A stretch of 40,876 nucleotides of DNA from assembly GCA_013373445.1 (NCBI GenBank), contig JABXHV010000123.1, positions 1 through 40,876 of the forward strand. Reading direction: 5' to 3'. A program made the position numbers and the translations under genes. The notes under the pieces were generated by a model, which did no database searches, was not told the origin of the DNA, and worked only from the letters and a program-made list of their open reading frames with translations. Shown piece by piece: positions 4,779 through 36,471 of the stretch. Numbering within the stretch: the first letter of the stretch is position 1; every line of letters starts with the position of its first letter. The DNA comes from Paracoccaceae bacterium (GTDB lineage Bacteria; Pseudomonadota; Alphaproteobacteria; Rhizobiales; Stappiaceae).

Positions 4779-5710
4779 TTGCGAACAGCTCCAAAGGTGA
4801 TCCCACGCAGCAGGTGCTTGCGTAGCAGGACAGTGAAGACCATGACGGGTACAAGGAAGAGGGTCGCACCGGCTGCAACAGCGGGCCAATCCTTACCGAC
4901 GCCAATAATCGTAGGGATGAAGGGAGGTGCGGTCTGAGCCGTGCCCGAGGTCAAGAGGACCGCGAACGCGTATTCATTCCAGGAAAAGATCAGACAGAAG
5001 ATTGCAGTTGATGCGATCCCGGTTGCCGCCTGTGGGAGCACGACCTTGTAGAAGGCCTGAAACCGGGTGTAGCCATCAATCAGGGCCGCTTCCTCGTATT
5101 CAACTGGGATTTCGTCGATGAAGCCTTTCAGCAGCCAGACGGACAGAGACAAGTTCACTGCCGTGTAGAGCAGTATCATGCCCAGATGCGTGTCTGACAG
5201 ACCCAGCTGCCGGAACATCAGGAAGATCGGGATCGCAACGGCGATCGGAGGCATCATCCTTGTCGAGAGGATGAAGAACATCAGATCATCTTTGAGCGGG
5301 ACCCGAAAACGAGAGAATCCGTAAGCTGCCAGTGTTCCCAGAAAGATCGACAAAAATGTCGAGCCAAATCCAATGATGACGGAGTTCAGGAACCGTTCGC
5401 CGTAGCGGCTTGGGCCAGAAATCACCATGTCATATTGGCGCACAATCTTGTCGTACCAAGTCTGCGGAGGGCCAAGTTCGGCCAGCGCGTCTGGTGACAT
5501 GCGTGTGCGTGTGGTGAAGAGGTTGACGTATCCTTCGACCGTCGGCTCGAAAACCACCTTTGGCGGATAGGCAATGGCATCAGACGGTGATTTGAAGCCA
5601 GTCGCGATAATCCACAACAGGGGAAGGATCGTCAGCAGCGCGTAGCCGGTTACGAGTACCCCGGCGAACCATTTTTGTCTGGTTGAGGGTTGGGTTACGG
5701 AAAAGCTCAT
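4775..5710 (-). CDS. ABC transporter permease, second (MalG/UgpE-like)
   Basis: A 311-residue inner-membrane permease with about six helices: a first helix around residues 15-35, a long periplasmic segment, then the core. The EAA loop that docks the ATPase reads EEAALIDGYTRFQAFYKVVLP, and the MMPPIAVAIPIF segment is typical of the MalG class. The start at ATG 5710 is chosen because it overlaps the upstream permease stop by 4 bases; a longer frame to 5812 would run into the neighbouring gene. The gene is followed, again with a 4-base overlap, by the small membrane protein. It would form the translocation pore with the first permease. Confidence 0.9.
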   Translation of the reverse strand: MSFSVTQPSTRQKWFAGVLVTGYALLTILPLLWIIATGFKSPSDAIAYPPKVVFEPTVEGYVNLFTTRTRMSPDALAELGPPQTWYDKIVRQYDMVISGPSRYGERFLNSVIIGFGSTFLSIFLGTLAAYGFSRFRVPLKDDLMFFILSTRMMPPIAVAIPIFLMFRQLGLSDTHLGMILLYTAVNLSLSVWLLKGFIDEIPVEYEEAALIDGYTRFQAFYKVVLPQAATGIASTAIFCLIFSWNEYAFAVLLTSGTAQTAPPFIPTIIGVGKDWPAVAAGATLFLVPVMVFTVLLRKHLLRGITFGAVRK

Positions 5711-15907: not shown

Positions 15908-16318
15908 TTAGCTCGCCGATGTAACTATTCTTGTCAGCCATGTGCCCAAGAAGGCCGCCGTGCCAGTCAGAACGGTTCCCCATGCCATGTCCACTGCAGA
16001 AACCGTGAGTGACCAGCTGCGCAAGGTTGCGTAGTTCGTCATGTCATAAGTTCCGTAAGCGAAGAAGCCGAACAGGGCGCCATAAATGAGGGCTGAGCCA
16101 AGGTTTCCAGACTTCAACGCTGGGAGGACGGCAAAAATCAGAATGCCGACAACGTAGATCGCATAGAATCCAACGGCAGCTCCCATGCGCGGGCTGTCGA
16201 GTATGATGTCGCCCAGACGGTCAAAGTAGAATGTCTTTGCGACACGGGTCAGCCAAATGTAGTCAATTCCAAGAAACACCACGGCTGTGAATGCGTATGC
16301 GATCAGATATTGGGTCAT
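15908..16318 (-). CDS. DUF2177 family membrane protein
   Basis: A 136-residue protein with four hydrophobic helices and the DUF2177 hallmarks: an early VFLGIDYIWL, a central ALIYGALFGFFAYGTYDMTNYATL and a final helix with VDMAWGTVLTG. The biochemical role of this family is not known to me. ATG 16318 has AGG at a good distance, while ATG 16324 two codons earlier sits too close to it. The promoter at 16375-16402 has the same TGATCC-N16-CGT form as the rpoE and FAD-oxidoreductase promoters, so it probably belongs to the singlet-oxygen regulon; a role in membrane protection would fit. Confidence 0.85.
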   Translation of the reverse strand: MTQYLIAYAFTAVVFLGIDYIWLTRVAKTFYFDRLGDIILDSPRMGAAVGFYAIYVVGILIFAVLPALKSGNLGSALIYGALFGFFAYGTYDMTNYATLRSWSLTVSAVDMAWGTVLTGTAAFLGTWLTRIVTSAS

Positions 16319-16374
16319 GGTCATCCTGTCGAAGTTGTTCTGATAATCTTGTCCGGTCGAATCTGTTAACCTCT

Positions 16375-16402
16375 TATACGCATCGGAAGTTGTGTTGGAT
16401 CA
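16375..16402 (-). promoter_or_regulatory. RpoE(ECF11)-type promoter for the DUF2177 gene
   Basis: On the minus strand TGATCC (16402-16397) is followed by 16 bases and CGTATA (16380-16375). The gene start is about 57 bases further on. TGATCC as -35 is the known hallmark of ChrR-controlled sigma factors of the R. sphaeroides RpoE type. The same spacing recurs twice in this window. Confidence 0.78.
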
Positions 16403-16473
16403 CTCAATCCCTGCTCGCGAGGAGTTTGTTATTGTGATGAAAGGGATTTTTGTCTCGGTTCATCATTTCAGAG

Positions 16474-16501
16474 TGATCCGCCGGAGGGTTCGATACGTTA
16501 C
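16474..16501 (+). promoter_or_regulatory. RpoE(ECF11)-type promoter for the lipid-modification operon
   Basis: TGATCC (16474-16479), 16 bases, then CGTTAC (16496-16501), with the FAD oxidoreductase ATG at 16529. It is divergent from the DUF2177 promoter; the two -35 regions form an inverted repeat (GGATCACTC at 16397-16405, GAGTGATCC at 16471-16479). Confidence 0.75.
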
Positions 16502-16528
16502 AGTAGTAGTTCAAAACTGGGACACGTA

Positions 16529-17857
16529 ATGGAACCTCTAAAGATTGCCGTGATCGGCTCCGGTATCTCCGGCTTATCTGCAGCTTGGCTGTTATCTAAG
16601 AACCACACTGTAACCGTGTATGAAGCCGGTGATCATCTCGGTGGGCACGCCAACACTCTTGAAGTCGACACCGTTGAAGGTTCTGTTGCCGTCGACACCG
16701 GGTTCATCGTTTACAACGAGCGCAACTATCCAAACCTGGCGGCGCTGTTCCGTCACCTGGATGTTGATACCGATCCGACAATCATGAGTTTTGCGCTATC
16801 TTTCAACCAGGGGGCCTATGAATATTCAGGGTCGGGCATAGGCGGTTTCTTTGGTCAGAAACGTAATTTTTTCAAGCCACTCCATTGGCAGCTCTTGAAT
16901 GATCTGTCCCGGTTTTTCCGAACCGCCAGTGCTCGCGTTGAAACGCTTCCAGCAGACATTACACTTGGAAACTTCCTTGAACTGGAGGGGTACTCTTCGG
17001 TTTTCATAAATGATCATATCGTGCCAATGGGGGCTGCGATCTGGTCCACGTCGATGAATGAGATGTTGGGCTTCTCTGCCCGTAGTTTTGTCGATTTTTA
17101 TGCCAACCATGGCATGCTGCAATTCAAGGATCGTCCGGCCTGGAGAACCGTTTCCGGTGGCAGTCAGTCCTATGTGAAAAAGATGATCGCTGACACTGAC
17201 ATCGAAGTGCAACTTGGAAACGGTGTTCAGCGGATCGTCCGCCAACCCGGTTATGTCCACGTAACGGACGAGCAGGGTGTGGTGCGTCCGTTCGATCACG
17301 TCGTGATTGCGACACATGCAAATCAGGCGCTGGATATGATTGAGGCGCCCGATCCATTGGAACAAGATGTTCTCGGGGCCTTCAGCTATCAGGCGAACAG
17401 GGCTGTCCTGCACCGGGATCCGCGTTGGATGCCAAAACGCAAGGGACTCTGGTCCAGTTGGAACTATCTGAAGACCTCCAAAGGTGAAGATACAGAACTG
17501 TGTGTCACTTACTGGATGAACCGATTGCAGGTCTTGCCGACCACGACAGATTTGTTCGTGACTTTGAACCCTCAAGCTGAAATCCATCCCAAGGCTGTCG
17601 ATGCGGATATTATGTACCAGCATCCGGTCTTCGATCACGCGGCTGTCAGGGCACAAAAGCGGCTCTGGAATTTGCAGGGTACCCATCGAACCTGGTTCTG
17701 CGGAAGCTACTTCGGCTACGGTTTTCACGAGGATGGAATTCAGAGTGGATTGGCGGTTGCAGAAGCCCTGGGCGCTGCGCGTCGGCCTTGGCAACTGGAC
17801 AATGAATCTGGCCGGATGGCATGTGCCATGGATATCGGCCGTGAGGCCGCGGAATGA
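16529..17857 (+). CDS. FAD-dependent amine-oxidase-like oxidoreductase (UfaD candidate)
   Basis: A 442-residue flavoprotein. The N-terminal nucleotide-binding motif is GSGISG (10-15), followed by YEAGDHLGGHANTL, the second part of the FAD site; the C-terminal FAD motif is visible around CGSYFGYGFHEDGIQSG. The fold is that of the amine oxidase/phytoene desaturase superfamily, whose members desaturate or oxidise lipids and amines. It begins the operon with DUF1365 and Cfa-family genes and has its own TGATCC-type promoter. Such FAD-DUF1365 pairs stand next to rpoE-chrR in Rhodobacter and include genes needed for furan fatty acid synthesis (ufaD/ufaO, from memory). Desaturation of a methylated acyl chain is the best guess; biochemical proof is absent here. 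Confidence 0.85.
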   Translation: MEPLKIAVIGSGISGLSAAWLLSKNHTVTVYEAGDHLGGHANTLEVDTVEGSVAVDTGFIVYNERNYPNLAALFRHLDVDTDPTIMSFALSFNQGAYEYSGSGIGGFFGQKRNFFKPLHWQLLNDLSRFFRTASARVETLPADITLGNFLELEGYSSVFINDHIVPMGAAIWSTSMNEMLGFSARSFVDFYANHGMLQFKDRPAWRTVSGGSQSYVKKMIADTDIEVQLGNGVQRIVRQPGYVHVTDEQGVVRPFDHVVIATHANQALDMIEAPDPLEQDVLGAFSYQANRAVLHRDPRWMPKRKGLWSSWNYLKTSKGEDTELCVTYWMNRLQVLPTTTDLFVTLNPQAEIHPKAVDADIMYQHPVFDHAAVRAQKRLWNLQGTHRTWFCGSYFGYGFHEDGIQSGLAVAEALGAARRPWQLDNESGRMACAMDIGREAAE

Positions 17858-18627
17858 CCCTAGATGCGGTCTACAATGGAACAGTGTTCCATACGCGTAT
17901 GCGTCCGGTTGAGCACAAGCTGCGCTACCGCGTATTTGCGTTGATGCTTGACTGTAATGCGCTCGAGGATGTGGCCGAACGGTTAAAGCTCTTTTCGTTC
18001 AACCGCTTCAACTTGTTCAGTCTGTATGATCGGGATTTTGGCGACGGCACCTCGATACGGGCGTATTTGAAGGCACTTTCTAAAGCCACGCCGAACGGCA
18101 GAGATGTGACCAGTTTTTCGATGCTTTGCTATCCGCGTATCCTGGGTTACGCCTTCAATCCTCTGACGGTCTATTATGGTTTGGATGATGCCGGCCGTGT
18201 GCGCCTCGTCGTTTACGAGGTGAGCAACACATTTGGTCAGCGCAAGACTTATGTCTTGCCGGTGGAAGGTGAGGGTGAGGGCGTCATTGCACAGCAGTGC
18301 GCCAAGGAATTTTATGTATCGCCTTTCAATGAAGTTGCCGGAACCTACAGCTTTCATCTGACGCAGCCTGGCGAAGCGCTCACGGTCGGCGTGGCTCTGC
18401 GCGATGATGACGGGCCATTGATGAAGGCTCACTTTACCGCAAAACGGGCGCCGTTGACCGATGGTGCGCTTTTGAGGGCGCTGGCTGCAACTGGCTGGAT
18501 GACGCTCAAGGTGACGCTTGGCATCCACTATGAGGCTGCCCGTCTCTGGTTCAAGGGATTACGACTTGTGCCTCGGCCGCCTGCGCCTAAGAACCCTATT
18601 ACTTTTGTTGATAAATCCGGTACGTGA
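17854..18627 (+). CDS. DUF1365 family protein
   Basis: A 257-residue protein with DUF1365 features: an opening GTVFHTRMRPVEHKLRYRVF, then RFNLFSLYDRDFGDG, a central FSMLCYPRILGYAFNPLTVYY and the late FHLTQPGEAL. The start overlaps the FAD oxidoreductase stop by 4 bases (ATGA), and the Cfa-family gene begins 3 bases after its stop. The family is nearly always found with FAD oxidoreductase and Cfa-like genes, so it probably acts on the same lipid; in the furan fatty acid pathway it would be a candidate for the O2-dependent step (UfaO), which I cannot prove from sequence. No signal peptide is seen. Confidence 0.87.
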   Translation: MTLDAVYNGTVFHTRMRPVEHKLRYRVFALMLDCNALEDVAERLKLFSFNRFNLFSLYDRDFGDGTSIRAYLKALSKATPNGRDVTSFSMLCYPRILGYAFNPLTVYYGLDDAGRVRLVVYEVSNTFGQRKTYVLPVEGEGEGVIAQQCAKEFYVSPFNEVAGTYSFHLTQPGEALTVGVALRDDDGPLMKAHFTAKRAPLTDGALLRALAATGWMTLKVTLGIHYEAARLWFKGLRLVPRPPAPKNPITFVDKSGT

Positions 18628-18630
18628 GAC

Positions 18631-19875
18631 ATGGCTGAAGACGTGAGCTTTGAAACGGCATCCTCTAGAACTGGATGGCAGTCTCCGCTTGGCTATTTGG
18701 CGAGAAGTGTCCTTCGTCGATTGTCCCATTTGACGCACGAAGGCTCTTTACGAGTCGAGCTGCCTTCAGGTGAAGAGGTGCTTTTTGGCACCGGAACGGA
18801 CACAAGAATTCCAACCATTCAAGTTCATCACTATCGGGCCTTCTGGAAGATCGTACGCCGTGGGGCCATCGGGTTTTCGGAAGCTTACATGGATGGTGAT
18901 ATCGATGCCGACGATCTCGTGGGCTTCTTTGAATATTTTCTGAAAAACCGTACCCAGTTTGAAGAAAAGACACCCGGCTTTGTCAAATCGGGTTTCATGG
19001 ATCGGATCCTGCATCTGGCGCGGCGCAATTCAAAACGTGGAAGTCGGCGCAATATCACCGAGCACTATGATCTGGGTAATGCGTTCTATCGGCTGTGGCT
19101 TGATGAGAAGATGATTTATTCAAGCGCGTGCTATGGGCCTGGTGCCGAAACTCTCGAGGATGCCCAAAAGGTCAAGCTGCAGAAAATCACTGACCTCGTA
19201 AAGCTGACGGGCCAGGAAAAAATTCTGGAGATTGGCTGCGGCTGGGGCGCTCTCGCACTTCATATTGCGGCGCAGTCGGGTGCAAGAGTTGAAGGCATAA
19301 CCCTGTCTGACGAGCAGCTGGCATATGCACGCGACGCTGCGCGGGAGGCTGGCCTTTCAGATCGCTGTTCGTTCGTCCTGAAAGACTATCGCGATCAGGA
19401 AGGAGCCTATGACCGGATCGTGTCGATCGAGATGATCGAGGCGGTTGGCGAAGCTTACTGGCCAGATTATTTCAAGGTGCTCCATGATCGCTTGAAGGAT
19501 GGCGGATCAGCTGTCATTCAGGCCATCACGATTGATGAGGCCCGTTACGAGAGCTATAGGAACTCGGCTGAATTCATACAGCGCTACATCTTTCCGGGCG
19601 GCATGCTGCCGACACGCGAAATCATGGAAGAACAAGCTGTAAAAGCGGGTCTGCGGACAGATCATGTTGAGCTCTTTGGACAATCCTATGCCCAGACTTT
19701 GATGGATTGGCGCGAGCGATTTGAGGATGCTTGGCCGGAGATCGCCAAACTCGGATTTGACGAACACTTTCGCCGTCGCTGGCGTTATTACCTGGCCTAT
19801 TGCGAGGCAGGCTTCCGTGACGGGTCGATTGATGTCGGCTTCTACCGTTTTGTCAAAGACCAGCGCTCAGGGTGA
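18631..19875 (+). CDS. Cfa-family SAM-dependent fatty acyl methyltransferase (UfaM/CfaA type)
   Basis: A 414-residue enzyme that should transfer a methyl group from SAM to a double bond in a phospholipid acyl chain. It has the family motifs EHYDLGNAFYRLWLD (144-158), the SAM site LEIGCGWGALAL (199-210) and a C-terminal YIFPGGMLP. Aligned by eye with E. coli Cfa, Glu270 (for Glu239), Ile299 (Ile268) and Tyr353 (Tyr317) of the bicarbonate site are kept, but Cys139 is Ser165 and His266 is Gln297. It therefore belongs to a branch different from classical cyclopropane synthases; the UfaM methylases, which make methylated trans-unsaturated chains, are a plausible match. Last gene of the sigma-controlled operon; its stop faces the dehydrogenase stop with 8 bases between. 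Confidence 0.88.
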   Translation: MAEDVSFETASSRTGWQSPLGYLARSVLRRLSHLTHEGSLRVELPSGEEVLFGTGTDTRIPTIQVHHYRAFWKIVRRGAIGFSEAYMDGDIDADDLVGFFEYFLKNRTQFEEKTPGFVKSGFMDRILHLARRNSKRGSRRNITEHYDLGNAFYRLWLDEKMIYSSACYGPGAETLEDAQKVKLQKITDLVKLTGQEKILEIGCGWGALALHIAAQSGARVEGITLSDEQLAYARDAAREAGLSDRCSFVLKDYRDQEGAYDRIVSIEMIEAVGEAYWPDYFKVLHDRLKDGGSAVIQAITIDEARYESYRNSAEFIQRYIFPGGMLPTREIMEEQAVKAGLRTDHVELFGQSYAQTLMDWRERFEDAWPEIAKLGFDEHFRRRWRYYLAYCEAGFRDGSIDVGFYRFVKDQRSG

Positions 19876-19883
19876 TGCGCTGG

Positions 19884-20645
19884 TTAGCTGCGCATCACCA
19901 CCTTGTTGATGACCCAGAAATACAGGAAAGTCGGCATCCGTTTCAGCAGCTTCATCGCGAAGACAAACGCGCGTGGGAAGGCGATTTCGAACTTCTCGCG
20001 CTTCAAGCCATCATAGATCGCCTCGGCTGCTTCTTTGGCGCTAATCATGCCGGGCATGGGAAACGGATTGTCTTTCGTCATCGGGGTGTCGACGAAACCT
20101 GGATTGATAACCGAGACAGTGATTCCGTGTGGCTCCAGCTCTAACCGGAGCGTTTCTGCAAGATTGATCAACGCGGCCTTGGTCGGTCCATAGGCGATCG
20201 AGCGTGGGAGTCCTCTATACCCTGCCACTGATGCAACAATCGCAATGTGTCCGCTACCTCTTTCGATCATTGAAGGAATGAGAACATTGAGGGCGTTGAC
20301 AACACCCATGTAGTTGACTTCGACGCCGCTTCTCATGGACTCAAGATTGATGTCTTTTGCATCTATGAGTGCCCAAGTGCCGGCATTGAGCACCGCAAGG
20401 TCGATGGCCCCCGCATTTTCTTCGATGCTCTTGATGCCGGTGGCAACGGCTTCAGCATTGGTGACATCAAGTGGATATGCGGTTGTGTTTCGGCTTTGAT
20501 TGACTTGTATGTCCAATTTGTCTTTCGACCGGGACGAGACTGCCAAGTGGGTGACCTTGTCATCCAGGAGGCGCGCCAGTTCATAGCCGATGCCCGTGCT
20601 CGCACCGGTAATCCAGACCGTGTTCCAGTCAACGTCCTTTGTCAT
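19884..20645 (-). CDS. Short-chain dehydrogenase/reductase, last gene of the rpoE-chrR operon
   Basis: A 253-residue classical SDR. It has the cofactor motif TGASTGIG (13-20), the NAG motif LNAGTW, the catalytic Ser in VASVAGYRG and YGPTK with the catalytic Tyr and Lys. The C-terminal region is hydrophobic and basic (FVFAMKLLKRMPTFLYFW), suggesting attachment to the membrane and a lipid-like substrate. It starts 1 base after the chrR stop and thus is co-transcribed with rpoE and chrR. In other proteobacteria similar SDR genes accompany the FAD/DUF1365/Cfa cluster; a role in handling oxidised or modified acyl chains is inference. Confidence 0.88.
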   Translation of the reverse strand: MTKDVDWNTVWITGASTGIGYELARLLDDKVTHLAVSSRSKDKLDIQVNQSRNTTAYPLDVTNAEAVATGIKSIEENAGAIDLAVLNAGTWALIDAKDINLESMRSGVEVNYMGVVNALNVLIPSMIERGSGHIAIVASVAGYRGLPRSIAYGPTKAALINLAETLRLELEPHGITVSVINPGFVDTPMTKDNPFPMPGMISAKEAAEAIYDGLKREKFEIAFPRAFVFAMKLLKRMPTFLYFWVINKVVMRS

Positions 20646-20646
20646 C

Positions 20647-21300
20647 TCAGATCCCGACCAGCGGCTGGAGGAGACGACTGAAAAATCCCTTGAAACGGGT
20701 TTGGGTCTCAGTCGCTACGAGGCAAATACAGGGGGCGTCAGGCTCGACCCGCGGCTGGTGTTCGATGTGCTCATCCAGGTCGGCGATGTCTCCTGGCTGA
20801 AAGCGTCCGAGCGCATCCTGATAGCTGCCGGACAGAATCAGCGTCATTTCTGCACCGCCATGTCCATGTTCAGGCACGACCTTGTTGGGGCCAATGTGCA
20901 GTAGATAAAGCGATGAGCTGCCATCGACCTCAATGCGTTTGCGTTTCACACCAGGAGCTGCGGTTTTCCAGGCAATCTCGTCCAGGCGATTGCCGACATA
21001 GCGACGCAGGGGAAGAGGCACGTCAGCAAATACATCTCGTGCTAGGCTTTCCCGTCGTTGAAGGGGAGCTTCCGCAACATCTATGCTGGACATGATGCGT
21101 TCGAGAGCGCCGGGAGCCAACTCAGCCGGCTCTTCGCTTTCGATCAGGCTGCCGCCGATGTCTTCAGCCATTCGCAATTCATTGCGGCACTCTTCGCACA
21201 TGGCCAAGTGTGATGCGACCACCACGGAGAAAGCGTCATCCAGGTCACCACTTGCGAAGCGCATTAATGTGTTTTTGTCGAGGTGATGTCGGACCGTCAT
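20647..21300 (-). CDS. chrR: ChrR-type zinc-binding anti-sigma factor with cupin domain
   Basis: A 217-residue anti-sigma factor. The N-terminal domain carries His6, His31, Cys35 and Cys38 (SHLAMCEEC), at the very positions that bind zinc in R. sphaeroides ChrR. The C-terminal cupin domain shows His145, His147 and Glu151 in PEHGHGGAEMT plus His181, matching the second zinc site of the family shifted by four residues. The protein should hold RpoE inactive until singlet oxygen is sensed through the cupin domain. The start at ATG 21300 overlaps the rpoE stop by 4 bases; the longer frame to 21426 lies inside rpoE. The match to the characterised protein is unusually complete. Confidence 0.93.
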   Translation of the reverse strand: MTVRHHLDKNTLMRFASGDLDDAFSVVVASHLAMCEECRNELRMAEDIGGSLIESEEPAELAPGALERIMSSIDVAEAPLQRRESLARDVFADVPLPLRRYVGNRLDEIAWKTAAPGVKRKRIEVDGSSSLYLLHIGPNKVVPEHGHGGAEMTLILSGSYQDALGRFQPGDIADLDEHIEHQPRVEPDAPCICLVATETQTRFKGFFSRLLQPLVGI

Positions 21301-21896
21301 TGGTATACTTCCAGTCGTCTTTTCAGCTTTGAATATGCAAGACGCATTCTTGATTTCACTGTGCCGAGCGGCAACGACAGCTTCGCTGCTATTTCGCTCT
21401 GCGACAGGTCCTGCACAAAAGCACATTCTATAATCTGACGTTGGTCCTCAGGAAGATCGGCAACAGCGATTGCTACGCCTTCAGACTGCTGACTTGCGAG
21501 GGTGCATGCTTCTGCATCGGCTTCCTCGCTTGCCAATTCCACGTCGTCCAGGTCGTCATAGGGTTGTGACGATCTGCGGCGCAGGCGGTCTATCCTGGCA
21601 TTTCTGGCGATTGTGTAGACCCAGGTGCTCACCGCTCCGCGATCAGGCCTGTACAGATGCGCCTTGCTCCACAAGGTCATCATCACGTCTTGAACCAGAT
21701 CGTCTGCAACGGCTTGCTCTGCACCTGCCTTGATCATCAAAGCCTTGATGCGCGGGCCGAAATAAACGAACAGCGCCTTAAACGCCGCACGATCACCAGT
21801 TCTGACGATCTGTTCCATCAGCCTTTTGTGGGCTTCCATCGAGGCTTGGTGCACGTCATCGTCCAAAATAACTGTTGTTTCAGCGACCGATCTCAT
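21297..21896 (-). CDS. rpoE: RpoE-type ECF sigma factor (ECF11, ChrR-controlled)
   Basis: A 199-residue extracytoplasmic-function sigma factor. Region 2 is visible in DDLVQDVMMTLWSKAHLYRPDR with the following VSTWVYTIARNARIDRLRRR; region 4 is visible in DLPEDQRQIIECAFVQDLSQ through LPLGTVKSRMRLAYSKLKRRL. The gene is followed by chrR with a 4-base overlap, as in Rhodobacter sphaeroides, where this pair drives the singlet-oxygen response. A TGATCC-N16-CGTACA site 30-60 bases upstream indicates autoregulation. The ATG at 21896 has only a modest AAGG upstream. Confidence 0.93.
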   Translation of the reverse strand: MRSVAETTVILDDDVHQASMEAHKRLMEQIVRTGDRAAFKALFVYFGPRIKALMIKAGAEQAVADDLVQDVMMTLWSKAHLYRPDRGAVSTWVYTIARNARIDRLRRRSSQPYDDLDDVELASEEADAEACTLASQQSEGVAIAVADLPEDQRQIIECAFVQDLSQSEIAAKLSLPLGTVKSRMRLAYSKLKRRLEVYQ

Positions 21897-21927
21897 ATCC
21901 GTCCGAACCTTAAGTCAACTCGTACTG

Positions 21928-21955
21928 TGTACGCGGTGAAACTTCAGGTGGATCA
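21928..21955 (-). promoter_or_regulatory. Autoregulatory RpoE(ECF11)-type promoter of rpoE-chrR-SDR
   Basis: On the minus strand TGATCC (21955-21950), 16 bases, then CGTACA (21933-21928), with the rpoE ATG about 32 bases further. It has the same -35 and spacing as the two sites at 16375-16501, which ties the three transcription units together. Confidence 0.8.
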
Positions 21956-33517: not shown

Positions 33518-36471
33518 CCCAGAAGAACCGTCTTGCCGGTGGTCTGATTGATCGTTCCAAGTCCTTGAAATTTCAGTTTGACGGTCGCACCTACGATGGC
33601 TTTGCAGGCGATACCCTGGCCTCGGCCTTGCTCGCCAATGGCGTCAGGCTCATGGGTCGCAGCTTCAAGTATCACCGCCCGCGTGGCGTTGTGACTTGCG
33701 GCTCGGATGAACCCAATGCGTTGGTAGAGCTGCGAAAAGGCGCATATCAGGAGCCGAATACCCGGGCGACTGTGACCGAACTGTTTGAAGGGCTGTCTGC
33801 AAAAAGCCAGAACCGTTGGCCGTCTCTATCGTTTGATGCCATGGCGATTAATGATGTCTTTTCAGACTTTCTGACCGCTGGTTTCTACTACAAGACGTTT
33901 ATGTGGCCGAAGGCCTTTTGGGAAAAGCTGTACGAGCCAATCATTCGTCGGGCCGCAGGGCTCGGATCTCTGTCTGGTAAGGTTGATCCAGATGTGTACG
34001 AAAAAGGCTTCTTACACTGCGATCTTTTGGTGATAGGTGCAGGACCGGCAGGACTTTCTGCAGCCCTGACGGCTGCGCGCTCGGGAGCTCGAGTGATCCT
34101 TGCTGACGAAGACTTTCAACCAGGTGGTCGTCTGACATCCGAATTGATGGCGCTCGATGATGGCGATGCTTCGCTTTGGATCAAGGTTGTTCTCGACGAA
34201 CTTCGCTCTTTGAGCACAGTGCGACTGATGACTCGTACGACAGTGTTCGGGTCTTATGACCACGGTACATATGGTGCGCTGGAACGGGTGTCTGATCACC
34301 TGGGTAATCCTGATCCGGATCTGCCGCGTCAAATCCTATGGCGGATCTATTCCAAGCGGGCGGTGTTGTGCGCAGGAGCTGGAGAACGTTCCATTGCGTT
34401 TGAAAACAATGACCGTCCCGGCATCATGATGGCGAGTGCCATGCGCAGCTACGCCAATCGTTATGCCGCTGCAGCAGATCAAAGCATTGCCGTTTTTACG
34501 AACAATGATGATGGACACAAGACGGCGCGCGATATGATGGCTAAGGGCGTCGATGTAACTGCTGTGGTTGATGTCCGCTCTGGTGCCGACCCGATTGCAG
34601 ACTATCCGTTTTATGCTGGCGCGAAGGTCATCAATACGGCCGGACGATTGGGTCTCAAGTCCATCGATATCCGGTTGAACGATGGAAGCGTCAAGACAAT
34701 ACCATGCGGAGCGCTTGGAGTGGCCGGGGGATGGAACCCACAGGTGTCTTTGACCTGTCACCAACGTGGCCGACCCCAGTGGGATCCCGCGATTGCAGCG
34801 TTCGTACCTGACAATGTGTTGCCTCAAGGTATGAGTGTGGCGGGAGCTGCCAAAGGGGTTTTTTCCACTCAGGGAGCGTTGGTCTCCGGAGCGGAAGCTG
34901 CAGTGCGCGCGCTTGGCGAACTTGGCCGCGAGGCGCATATGCCTGCGCTGCCAGAGGCTGAGGATGCTCCGATCCAAGTGCAGGCGTTTTGGCACGTCGG
35001 TGAGGGCAAGGGGCGCGGCTGGCTCGATTTTCAGAATGATGTGACTGTAAAGGATGTGAAGCTGGCCTATCAGGAAGGCTTCAGATCCGTTGAACATCTC
35101 AAACGCTATACGACAATGGGCATGGCAACGGATCAAGGGAAGCTCTCAAACCTGGGCGGTCTTGCAGTCCTGGCGGAGTTATCTGGCAAGACCATCGCGG
35201 AAACGGGCACGACCATGTTTCGCCCTCCATTCACACCGGTTCCAATCGCTGCTTTCGCCGGGCGGTCACGTGAAGCTGATTTTCGTCCGACACGCCTCAC
35301 CCCGAGCCATGACTGGGCGGAGGAGCAGGGGGCGGTTTTCGTCGAGGTTGGTGCCTGGATGCGCGCCCAGTATTTTCCAAGACCTGGCGAAACCCATTGG
35401 CGTGAGACAGTCGATCGGGAGGCTCTTGCGGTCCGTAAGTCTGTTGGTGTCTGCGATGTTACCACTCTCGGCAAGATTGACGTTCAGGGCAAGGATGCCG
35501 CGGAATTTCTGAACTTCGTCTACTGCAACGGTTTTGCCAAACTTGCCGTCGGCAAGACCCGTTACGGGTTAATGTTGCGTGAAGACGGTTTCGCCATGGA
35601 TGACGGTACAGCGGCGCGTTTGGCGGAAGACCATTTTGTTGTCACCACAACAACGGCCAATGCGGTCAGTGTGTTCAGACACATGGAATTTGTACGCCAG
35701 TGCCTGAAACCGAACCTTGATGTGCAGCTGATCTCAACGACGGATGCCTGGGCGCAATATGCGGTGGCAGGTCCAAACTCGCGGGATCTGTTGCGGAAAA
35801 TCGTTGATCCGGAGATTGATATTTCGAACGAAGCCTTTCCATTCATGAGCTGTGCAGACATCACGGTCTGTGGCGGCGTGCGTGCACGGTTGTTCCGGAT
35901 CTCCTTTTCCGGCGAATTGGCCTATGAGATCGCCGTGCCGACACGTTATGGCGATAGCCTTATGCGCGTCCTGATGGAGGCCGGTGAAGAGTTTGATGTT
36001 GTGCCATATGGCACTGAAGCTCTTGGTGTGCTTCGGATTGAAAAAGGCCACGCAGCTGGAAACGAGCTAAATGGTCAGACATCGGCTTATCATCTTGGGA
36101 TGGGGAGGATGGTTTCGACCAAGAAAGACAGCATTGGCGCAGTACTCTCCCGGCGTGAAGGACTGTCAAGTGAAGACGGCGTTCGACTGATCGGACTGGA
36201 AGCGCTTGACGCCGAGAGCCAACTACCTGCCGGTGGTCACCTGTTTGAGGATAGCGCTGACGAGGTTGTGGCGAATGATCAGGGGTGGGTGACATCTGCC
36301 TGCTACTCGCCGCATCTGACGCGGCATATCGCGCTTGCGTATCTTGAAAGGGGCGATCAACGGATTGGTGAAATCATCCGGATCGCCAATCCGCTGGAGG
36401 GTCAGTCCATCAGCGCAAGAGTGGTGAGTCCACATTTTATTGATCCGGAAGGGGAGCGTTTGCGTGTGTGA
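33514..36471 (+). CDS. soxA: Sarcosine oxidase alpha subunit
   Basis: A 985-residue large subunit of the heterotetramer. An N-terminal 2Fe-2S-like domain without visible cluster Cys (residues about 18-95, with RSFKYHRPRGVVTCG) is followed by a nucleotide-binding domain (VIGAGPAGLSAA, 173-184, for NAD) and a second dinucleotide part. The C-terminal 390 residues are a GcvT-like aminomethyltransferase domain that binds tetrahydrofolate, opening with EEQGAVFVEVGAWMRAQYFPRPGE and ending with HLTRHIALAYLERGDQRIG. The length is usual. The ATG overlaps the soxD stop by 4 bases and soxG begins inside its 3' end. Confidence 0.94.
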   Translation: MTQKNRLAGGLIDRSKSLKFQFDGRTYDGFAGDTLASALLANGVRLMGRSFKYHRPRGVVTCGSDEPNALVELRKGAYQEPNTRATVTELFEGLSAKSQNRWPSLSFDAMAINDVFSDFLTAGFYYKTFMWPKAFWEKLYEPIIRRAAGLGSLSGKVDPDVYEKGFLHCDLLVIGAGPAGLSAALTAARSGARVILADEDFQPGGRLTSELMALDDGDASLWIKVVLDELRSLSTVRLMTRTTVFGSYDHGTYGALERVSDHLGNPDPDLPRQILWRIYSKRAVLCAGAGERSIAFENNDRPGIMMASAMRSYANRYAAAADQSIAVFTNNDDGHKTARDMMAKGVDVTAVVDVRSGADPIADYPFYAGAKVINTAGRLGLKSIDIRLNDGSVKTIPCGALGVAGGWNPQVSLTCHQRGRPQWDPAIAAFVPDNVLPQGMSVAGAAKGVFSTQGALVSGAEAAVRALGELGREAHMPALPEAEDAPIQVQAFWHVGEGKGRGWLDFQNDVTVKDVKLAYQEGFRSVEHLKRYTTMGMATDQGKLSNLGGLAVLAELSGKTIAETGTTMFRPPFTPVPIAAFAGRSREADFRPTRLTPSHDWAEEQGAVFVEVGAWMRAQYFPRPGETHWRETVDREALAVRKSVGVCDVTTLGKIDVQGKDAAEFLNFVYCNGFAKLAVGKTRYGLMLREDGFAMDDGTAARLAEDHFVVTTTTANAVSVFRHMEFVRQCLKPNLDVQLISTTDAWAQYAVAGPNSRDLLRKIVDPEIDISNEAFPFMSCADITVCGGVRARLFRISFSGELAYEIAVPTRYGDSLMRVLMEAGEEFDVVPYGTEALGVLRIEKGHAAGNELNGQTSAYHLGMGRMVSTKKDSIGAVLSRREGLSSEDGVRLIGLEALDAESQLPAGGHLFEDSADEVVANDQGWVTSACYSPHLTRHIALAYLERGDQRIGEIIRIANPLEGQSISARVVSPHFIDPEGERLRV

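Follow-up and report, generated by a model that had tools for sequence, protein, structure and literature searches.

A 40,876-nucleotide stretch of DNA (positions 1 to 40,876 of contig JABXHV010000123.1, assembly GCA_013373445.1), here called the window, lies in a 3.64 Mb draft genome of 201 contigs from a bacterium whose genus we took as Roseibium. It carries a module of three transcription units: rpoE, chrR and a short-chain dehydrogenase/reductase (SDR) gene; an operon of lipid-modifying enzymes; and a gene of the DUF2177 family. The original prediction had joined these units in a single regulon of an extracytoplasmic function (ECF) sigma factor. Our analysis makes an ECF11 sigma/anti-sigma regulon over rpoE-chrR-SDR, the predicted furan-fatty-acid operon and DUF2177 the very probable reading of the module, and the exact promoter sites, the ECF11-type pair and the conservation of the promoters support that proposal. 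The core of this regulon is of a known kind, and DUF2177 is the added and less expected member. The module would thus represent a compact singlet-oxygen regulon of the Rhodobacter sphaeroides type in a marine member of the Roseibium group. The strong promoter conservation ties an uncharacterised membrane family to it and gives a handle on that family's role.

The sigma/anti-sigma pair and its candidate promoters

Based on comparison with solved structures, the sigma and anti-sigma factors of the window are homologous to the RpoE-ChrR pair (ECF11) of R. sphaeroides. The sigma factor matched chain A of 2Q1Z with an E value of 2.4e-39, with the next solved sigma factor at 2.7e-13, and the closest solved structure to the anti-sigma factor was R. 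sphaeroides ChrR (2Z2S chain B, E 7.8e-47). The coding regions of rpoE and chrR share 4 nt, and the SDR gene comes after chrR with a gap of 1 nt, a single operon layout. The anti-sigma domain retains the zinc ligands H6, H31, C35 and C38, and the cupin ligands H145, H147, E151 and H181 are present, which is the full set of HHCC and cupin ligands given for ChrR in PMC6852236. The claim that ChrR keeps all its zinc residues was confirmed by comparison with 2Z2S and by the ChrR alignment.

All three units are preceded by a TGATCC-N16-CGT sequence, and the three predicted sites were found letter for letter (Table 1). The sites end 50 nt (DUF2177), 27 nt (ufaD, the FAD oxidase gene) and 31 nt (rpoE) before the start codons; the one upstream of rpoE has the CGTA form and would putatively be used by RpoE itself. 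TGATCC-N16-CGTA is the published consensus in Pseudomonas syringae, CGTA being the -10 element (PMC5507510), and similar sites are described in Shewanella (PMC4336711). The site form in R. sphaeroides is TGATCC-N15-GCGTA (PMC5036791), in agreement with the earlier identification of TGATCC as the -35 element of R. sphaeroides RpoE. Exact TGATCC-N15..17-CGT sites numbered six in the window against 1.17 expected, and none of 100 shuffles of the 40.9 kb reached six. Four of the six have a 16-base spacer, namely the three promoter candidates and one site at 36441. Matches to TGATCC-N17-CGTA at 35107-35135 and 4798-4824 lie within open reading frames (ORFs) and were taken as chance.

Table 1. Genes and candidate promoters of the module, with positions in the window
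Feature	Position	Strand	Evidence
DUF2177 gene, 138-aa very hydrophobic predicted membrane protein	15908..16324	-	PF09945 152.6 bits (cut-off 26.9); hydropathy
Candidate ECF11-type promoter of DUF2177, TGATCC-N16-CGTATA	16375..16402	-	exact match; kept in genus
Candidate ECF11-type promoter of ufaD-ufaO-ufaM, TGATCC-N16-CGTTAC	16474..16501	+	exact match; CGTT replaces usual CGTA
ufaD homologue, predicted fatty acyl desaturase of flavin amine-oxidase type	16529..17857	+	PF01593 80.8 bits; R. palustris gene order
ufaO homologue, DUF1365, predicted furan-forming oxygenase	17854..18627	+	PF07103 242.3 bits
ufaM homologue, predicted S-adenosylmethionine-dependent fatty acyl methylase, CfaS family	18631..19875	+	PF02353 276.9 bits
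SDR-family dehydrogenase, gene 3 of rpoE operon	19884..20645	-	PF00106 145.6 bits
chrR, zinc anti-sigma factor with cupin domain	20647..21300	-	TIGR02451 194.1 bits (cut-off 124.5); 2Z2S chain B E 7.8e-47
rpoE, ECF11-type sigma factor	21297..21896	-	best solved relative R. sphaeroides SigE 2Q1Z, E 2.4e-39
Candidate autoregulatory ECF11-type promoter of rpoE-chrR-SDR, TGATCC-N16-CGTACA	21928..21955	-	exact match

Related genomes show similar clusters with such promoters. In a survey of loci longer than 5 kb from other genomes, with C or T allowed as the last -35 base and spacers of 15-17, sites stood upstream of 35 of 44 rpoE, 28 of 61 ufaD and 34 of 110 DUF2177 genes; the motif rate, true sites included, was 0.021 per stretch of equal size. 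The spacer was 16 bases at 35/35 rpoE, 27/28 ufaD and 33/34 DUF2177 sites, and the CGTT form occurred at two, three and three of them, respectively. Across the genus footprint of DUF2177, folE and photolyase (phr) sites, the base after CGT was A in 59 of 59, though the search pattern had left it free.

The genome-wide scan suggested with the original prediction was run. Loose patterns (40 and 120 sites) were too noisy for regulon calling, and we relied on the strict pattern together with conservation. The strict TGATCC-N16-CGTA form gave 12 sites in the whole draft genome, two being the DUF2177 and rpoE sites of the window, and added folE to the candidate targets. The other ten comprised seven sites deep in long ORFs and one each before folE, a Transgly_assoc gene and an AhpC/TSA peroxiredoxin gene. 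The Transgly_assoc site (contig C45) lies ~115 nt before its gene inside an opposite 126-aa ORF that is perhaps spurious, and the AhpC/TSA site (contig C162), ~175 nt before its gene, falls at the N-terminal end of a long ORF that runs in the opposite direction.

The same promoters occur in one genus with two differently built ChrR proteins. The best 30 ChrR loci were read, 20 of them from genus genomes (the search covered 37 genomes of the genus). Zinc ligands HHCC are kept in five of these 20, the window genome included, and the other 15 have lost three of the four, typically reading T, H, S, N (L073-L078, L080, L081, L083-L085, L087-L090); two loci from other families are also zinc-less (L082, L086). 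The cupin HHEH residues and a C-x-C pair are retained in 30/30. In the five zinc-less genomes read at length (G017, G035, G009, G032, G002), no rpoE homologue was found beside chrR; there, chrR-SDR faces ufaM-ufaO-ufaD, with TGATCY sites before chrR and before ufaD. The best RpoE homologue of these five genomes is encoded elsewhere (L281-L285) and has 40-43% identity to the window RpoE, and neither chrR nor a TGATCY-N15..17-CGT site was found in the 3.5 kb stretch that carries it. Comparison with solved structures placed one of these five proteins clearly in the R. sphaeroides type (2Q1Z, E 7.6e-50). In G055, from another family, a zinc-less ChrR adjoins rpoE. The contrast between the two versions bears on whether the zinc or the cupin site matters for sensing.

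Several observations weigh against a single regulon of this kind. The ligand loss in 15 of 20 genus ChrR loci, together with the lack of an adjoining rpoE in the five such genomes read at length, means that regulation in the genus is not uniform. The ufaD site reads CGTT, not CGTA, and beyond the genus the site turns up less regularly, as the survey counts for ufaD (28/61) and DUF2177 (34/110) indicate. Of the genome's two RpoH matches, one exceeds the family cut-off and the other is partial, scores below it and lies at a contig end. The stronger one was examined and no site was found at it; an RpoE-RpoHII cascade of the R. sphaeroides type is therefore not supported here by the sequence. Finally, with one mismatch allowed the window holds 7 sites against 3.0 expected, which is near chance and was reached in two shuffles. 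Since the excess fades in this way, the argument depends on where the sites lie, how exactly they match and how well they are conserved. The near-chance count of inexact matches is what would favor three chance matches as the explanation of the promoter sites; their position, exact spacing and preservation in close relatives speak so strongly the other way that we give that explanation almost no credence. The comparative evidence confirms, at the level of sequence, that the three sites are real.

DUF2177 as a probable member of the regulon

DUF2177 was found in 43 of 61 relatives, including 37/37 genomes of the window's genus. Of its loci in these relatives the best 30 of 43 were read, 29 belonging to the genus, and TGATCY-N16-CGTA stood directly upstream of the gene in 28 of the 29, with C as the last -35 base in 16 and T in 12. 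The chance expectation was 0.05, calculated from two occurrences of the motif elsewhere in these loci (190,400 strand-bases). The exception is G025, where the gene lies downstream of rpoE-chrR. Based on this promoter conservation, DUF2177 is a well-supported regulon member in the genus.

We considered whether DUF2177 could be a mere passenger, its promoter-like site incidental to the divergent ufaD promoter. The geometry of the window would allow this, as the two -35 boxes are back to back, 71 bp apart, and the class sample described below includes genomes in which the gene shows no link to the regulon. Against it, DUF2177 still has its own exact site in some Roseibium genomes where it lies far from the cluster, and it follows chrR in G018, G025 and G041. 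In three unlinked genomes (G017, G028, G035), ufa and chrR homologues were not found within ~8 kb of the gene. A passenger is thus very improbable, and we regard DUF2177 as a regulon member in its own right.

Beyond the genus, we examined 80 named loci, which were the best 80 of 593 and not independent, several coming from the same genus. Homologues of ufaD, ufaO, chrR or rpoE were near DUF2177 in 43 of the 80 (in L181 through a weak rpoE match alone). A TGATCY-N15..17-CGT site within 250 nt upstream was present in 26/80 against 1.31 expected, and the strict site in 17/80 against 0.44 expected. In the class sample, DUF2177 was present in 19 of 190 genomes, the window genome included. Among the 18 others the gene lay in a ufa cluster in six, had the promoter alone in two and neither in ten, so that a link was seen in 8/18. 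In one of the two promoter-alone genomes the site stands before a preceding MAPEG gene. DUF2177 therefore also has contexts outside the regulon. The family is present in Lactococcus lactis, used as a control, and DUF2177 is among the frequent neighbors of heliorhodopsin genes (PMC11109279). Plasmids carry it in 59 records; of two inspected, L361 was linked to regulon-type genes and L360 was not. In L361, a 600 kb plasmid of Paracoccus seriniphilus, DUF2177 adjoins SDR, MFS, DUF1365 and FAD-oxidoreductase genes, a gene content that resembles the R. sphaeroides RSP_1087-1091 operon plus DUF2177.

A locus from another alphaproteobacterial family (L269:8416-9318) shows TGATCC-N16-CGTAAA followed by a MAPEG-family gene and DUF2177 in an apparent operon. 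This gene pair suggested kinship between DUF2177 and MAPEG, but a comparison of profiles, made with the single MAPEG protein of this locus, lent it no support. Weak matches to DUF1761 were obtained for 17/87 members of the DUF2177 family (best E 9.8e-5), and a sequence search of solved structures with a small DUF2177 profile gave no match.

DUF2177 is not named in the available R. sphaeroides regulon table of 15 genes (PMC7074977), nor in the core list of PMC5507510 as available, and hypothetical proteins occur among the genes of both. No link to ECF11 was found in the parts of the DUF2177 literature that were covered, and no paper on COG4852 was found; an earlier mention is possible. In Chlamydomonas, the genes CFA1, CFA2, DUF1365 and DUF2177 are induced by singlet oxygen in a SAK1-dependent manner (PMC4067076). 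Because of this parallel, we tentatively suggest that DUF2177 may work in the membrane as a conserved partner of both furan-fatty-acid synthesis and the response to singlet oxygen, on or together with the modified lipids, and that alphaproteobacteria and green algae may have this partnership in common; we consider this broader role possible, with the balance somewhat against it.

The predicted furan-fatty-acid operon and candidate targets elsewhere in the genome

The original prediction had described the second unit as a lipid-modifying operon, and the Pfam matches together with the gene order of Rhodopseudomonas palustris sharpen this to furan-fatty-acid synthesis. Furan fatty acids are made by UfaM, UfaD and UfaO, the last containing DUF1365, and R. 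palustris has the order ufaD-ufaO-ufaM in RPA2571-2569 (PMC7380195). In the window, ufaD shares 4 nt with ufaO, and ufaM follows ufaO after a gap of 3 nt. As judged from its sequences, the operon most probably encodes the UfaD-UfaO-UfaM pathway, already a known part of the RpoE-ChrR regulon. A sequence search of solved structures with UfaO gave no match.

Residues S165, A271 and Q297 of the window CfaS protein align to C139, H240 and H266 of Escherichia coli Cfa (alignment to 6BQC). We take C139 and H266 of the E. coli enzyme to have catalytic roles. The CfaS-family alignment had 52 rows: besides the window protein it took in 51 ORFs of the loci, of which L231 repeats the window gene. One class of 39 rows has A at the H240 position and Q at the H266 position throughout, and S at the C139 position in 38, with A in one. 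Its members are the window protein, other genes from ufa clusters and a further UfaM-like paralogue encoded in the same genome, which lies outside the ufa cluster on contig C25 (L232, G000:C25:28618-29421). The distinct residue set of the window protein is common to 37 other proteins, in a comparison drawn from ORFs of the loci. The remaining 13 rows, mostly ~340 aa, carry E-H-M and H residues and, judging by size and neighborhood, may be FufM-like. FufM has been likened to Arabidopsis AT4G33110 (PMC10940516). The genome has four CMAS matches, two strong and UfaM-like and two weak at 43.6 and 36.2 bits, and a FufM-like protein was not identified among the two strong ones compared. Since the operon has a UfaM-like methylase and no FufM-like one was identified, the predicted product is a monomethyl furan fatty acid.

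The family names of the CfaS protein read cyclopropane synthase, which raises the alternative that it makes cyclopropane fatty acids and that the operon is a cyclopropane pathway. At the E. coli Cfa C139 and H266 positions, however, the protein has S165 and Q297, and at the H240 position A271; the A and Q run through its whole class and the S through all but one row, and its gene lies directly 3' of ufaD-ufaO like that of UfaM in R. palustris. In R. sphaeroides, ufaM is RSP_2144, apart from RSP_1087-1091. The gene that follows ufaO in that species, RSP_1089, appears as a sugar/cation symporter in Table 1 of PMC7074977; hence RSP_2144 is the relevant CfaS homologue of that species, and the idea that the window CfaS gene is the counterpart of RSP_1089 instead of UfaM was dropped. 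We judge a cyclopropane pathway to be improbable and retain the furan pathway.

The cluster had also been described as devoted to membrane lipids. The furan operon agrees with this description, but folE, located elsewhere in the genome, has the same conserved promoter, and the regulon is therefore probably not confined to lipids. The genome's enzyme is FolE, GTP cyclohydrolase I (TIGR00063, 210 bits), and its strict site lies at G000:C30:16617-16642 (L205:1501-1526). Sites were present in 17/19 main-copy loci of the genus, the window genome included, against 0.10 expected. The other 11 folE loci, second copies or from other families, had none (17/30 overall). Based on these sequences, membership of folE in this regulon is very likely.

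As originally claimed, the window has no photolyase gene; the single PF03441 match of the genome is on contig C47. No site was found near the start of this gene (L191), even with two mismatches; a lone TGATCC hexamer stands upstream of it, without CGTA at the right spacing. Among 18 main copies of the genus, 14 have a site (0.07 expected), with a spacer of 15 bases in ten and 16 in four, and a fifteenth (L333) has one further upstream. Second copies had no site (0/8) and copies of other families one (1/4), giving 16/30 overall. Since 14 of 18 genus loci have the motif and the window genome does not, the site appears to be missing in this species, which does not point to a lipid-only design. 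As predicted from its promoters, the regulon probably covers furan lipids, DUF2177 and pterin supply, and in this species it lacks the photolyase site.

Proposed mechanism, inducing signal and comparison with known systems

We propose that the zinc protein ChrR keeps RpoE bound and would set it free on losing activity, which singlet oxygen or organic hydroperoxides would bring about if the R. sphaeroides model applies. RpoE would then transcribe its own operon, the ufa operon and DUF2177 from TGATCC-N16-CGT(A/T) promoters, and very likely folE outside the window. UfaM would methylate an unsaturated acyl chain, UfaD would add a second double bond, and UfaO would insert oxygen to form the furan fatty acid. 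In R. sphaeroides the turnover of ChrR under singlet oxygen depends on this lipid, which is also believed to protect the membrane. DUF2177 would be a further conserved member located in the membrane. The genes, ligands, promoter sequences and their conservation are observed directly, and we infer that the sigma factor binds, which signal induces the regulon, what lipid is made and what DUF2177 does.

The choice of singlet oxygen as the signal rests on analogy with R. sphaeroides. The regulon could be real and its natural signal another, such as an organic hydroperoxide, blue light, metal or superoxide. ChrR systems indeed differ in this respect: that of P. syringae responds to tert-butyl hydroperoxide as well as to singlet oxygen (PMC5507510), and the signals elsewhere include hydrogen peroxide in Shewanella (PMC4336711), blue light in Vibrio cholerae and superoxide in Stenotrophomonas maltophilia. 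The window ChrR, on the other hand, retains the metal ligands of R. sphaeroides ChrR, and the targets are furan-fatty-acid genes, which are tied to the singlet-oxygen response in that species. We consider a different signal rather unlikely, yet a serious alternative, and favor singlet oxygen as the provisional assignment.

Among known systems, RpoE-ChrR of R. sphaeroides (Rhodobacter/Cereibacter) shares with the window the sigma factor, the zinc/cupin anti-sigma factor and the TGATCC -35 element. In both, ufaD, ufaO and an SDR gene (RSP_1087 in R. sphaeroides) adjoin rpoE-chrR, and a GTP cyclohydrolase is among the targets; the R. sphaeroides RpoE list includes phrA and folE2 (PMC7074977). In contrast to R. 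sphaeroides, where RSP_2144 lies elsewhere, ufaM is inside the ufa operon of the window, and the cluster has no counterparts of RSP_1088 and RSP_1089 and has DUF2177 added. The cyclohydrolase is FolE of type IA here and FolE2 there; the photolyase gene lacks a site, and no rpoHII-like target was found here. R. palustris RPA2571-2569 has the same furan-fatty-acid operon order but also the extra methylase FufM, none being identified here with two of the four CMAS matches examined. The SAK1 gene set of Chlamydomonas likewise brings CFA, DUF1365 and DUF2177 together, a likeness by family name, under a eukaryotic regulator and without a sigma factor. The class II LitR light regulon of Pseudomonas co-induces genes for photolyase (PhrB), UfaM and GTP cyclohydrolase (FolE) (PMC9758184). 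That target set resembles the one described here and is governed there by LitR-family regulators and LOV photoreceptors, whereas in the window a sigma/anti-sigma pair would take that role.

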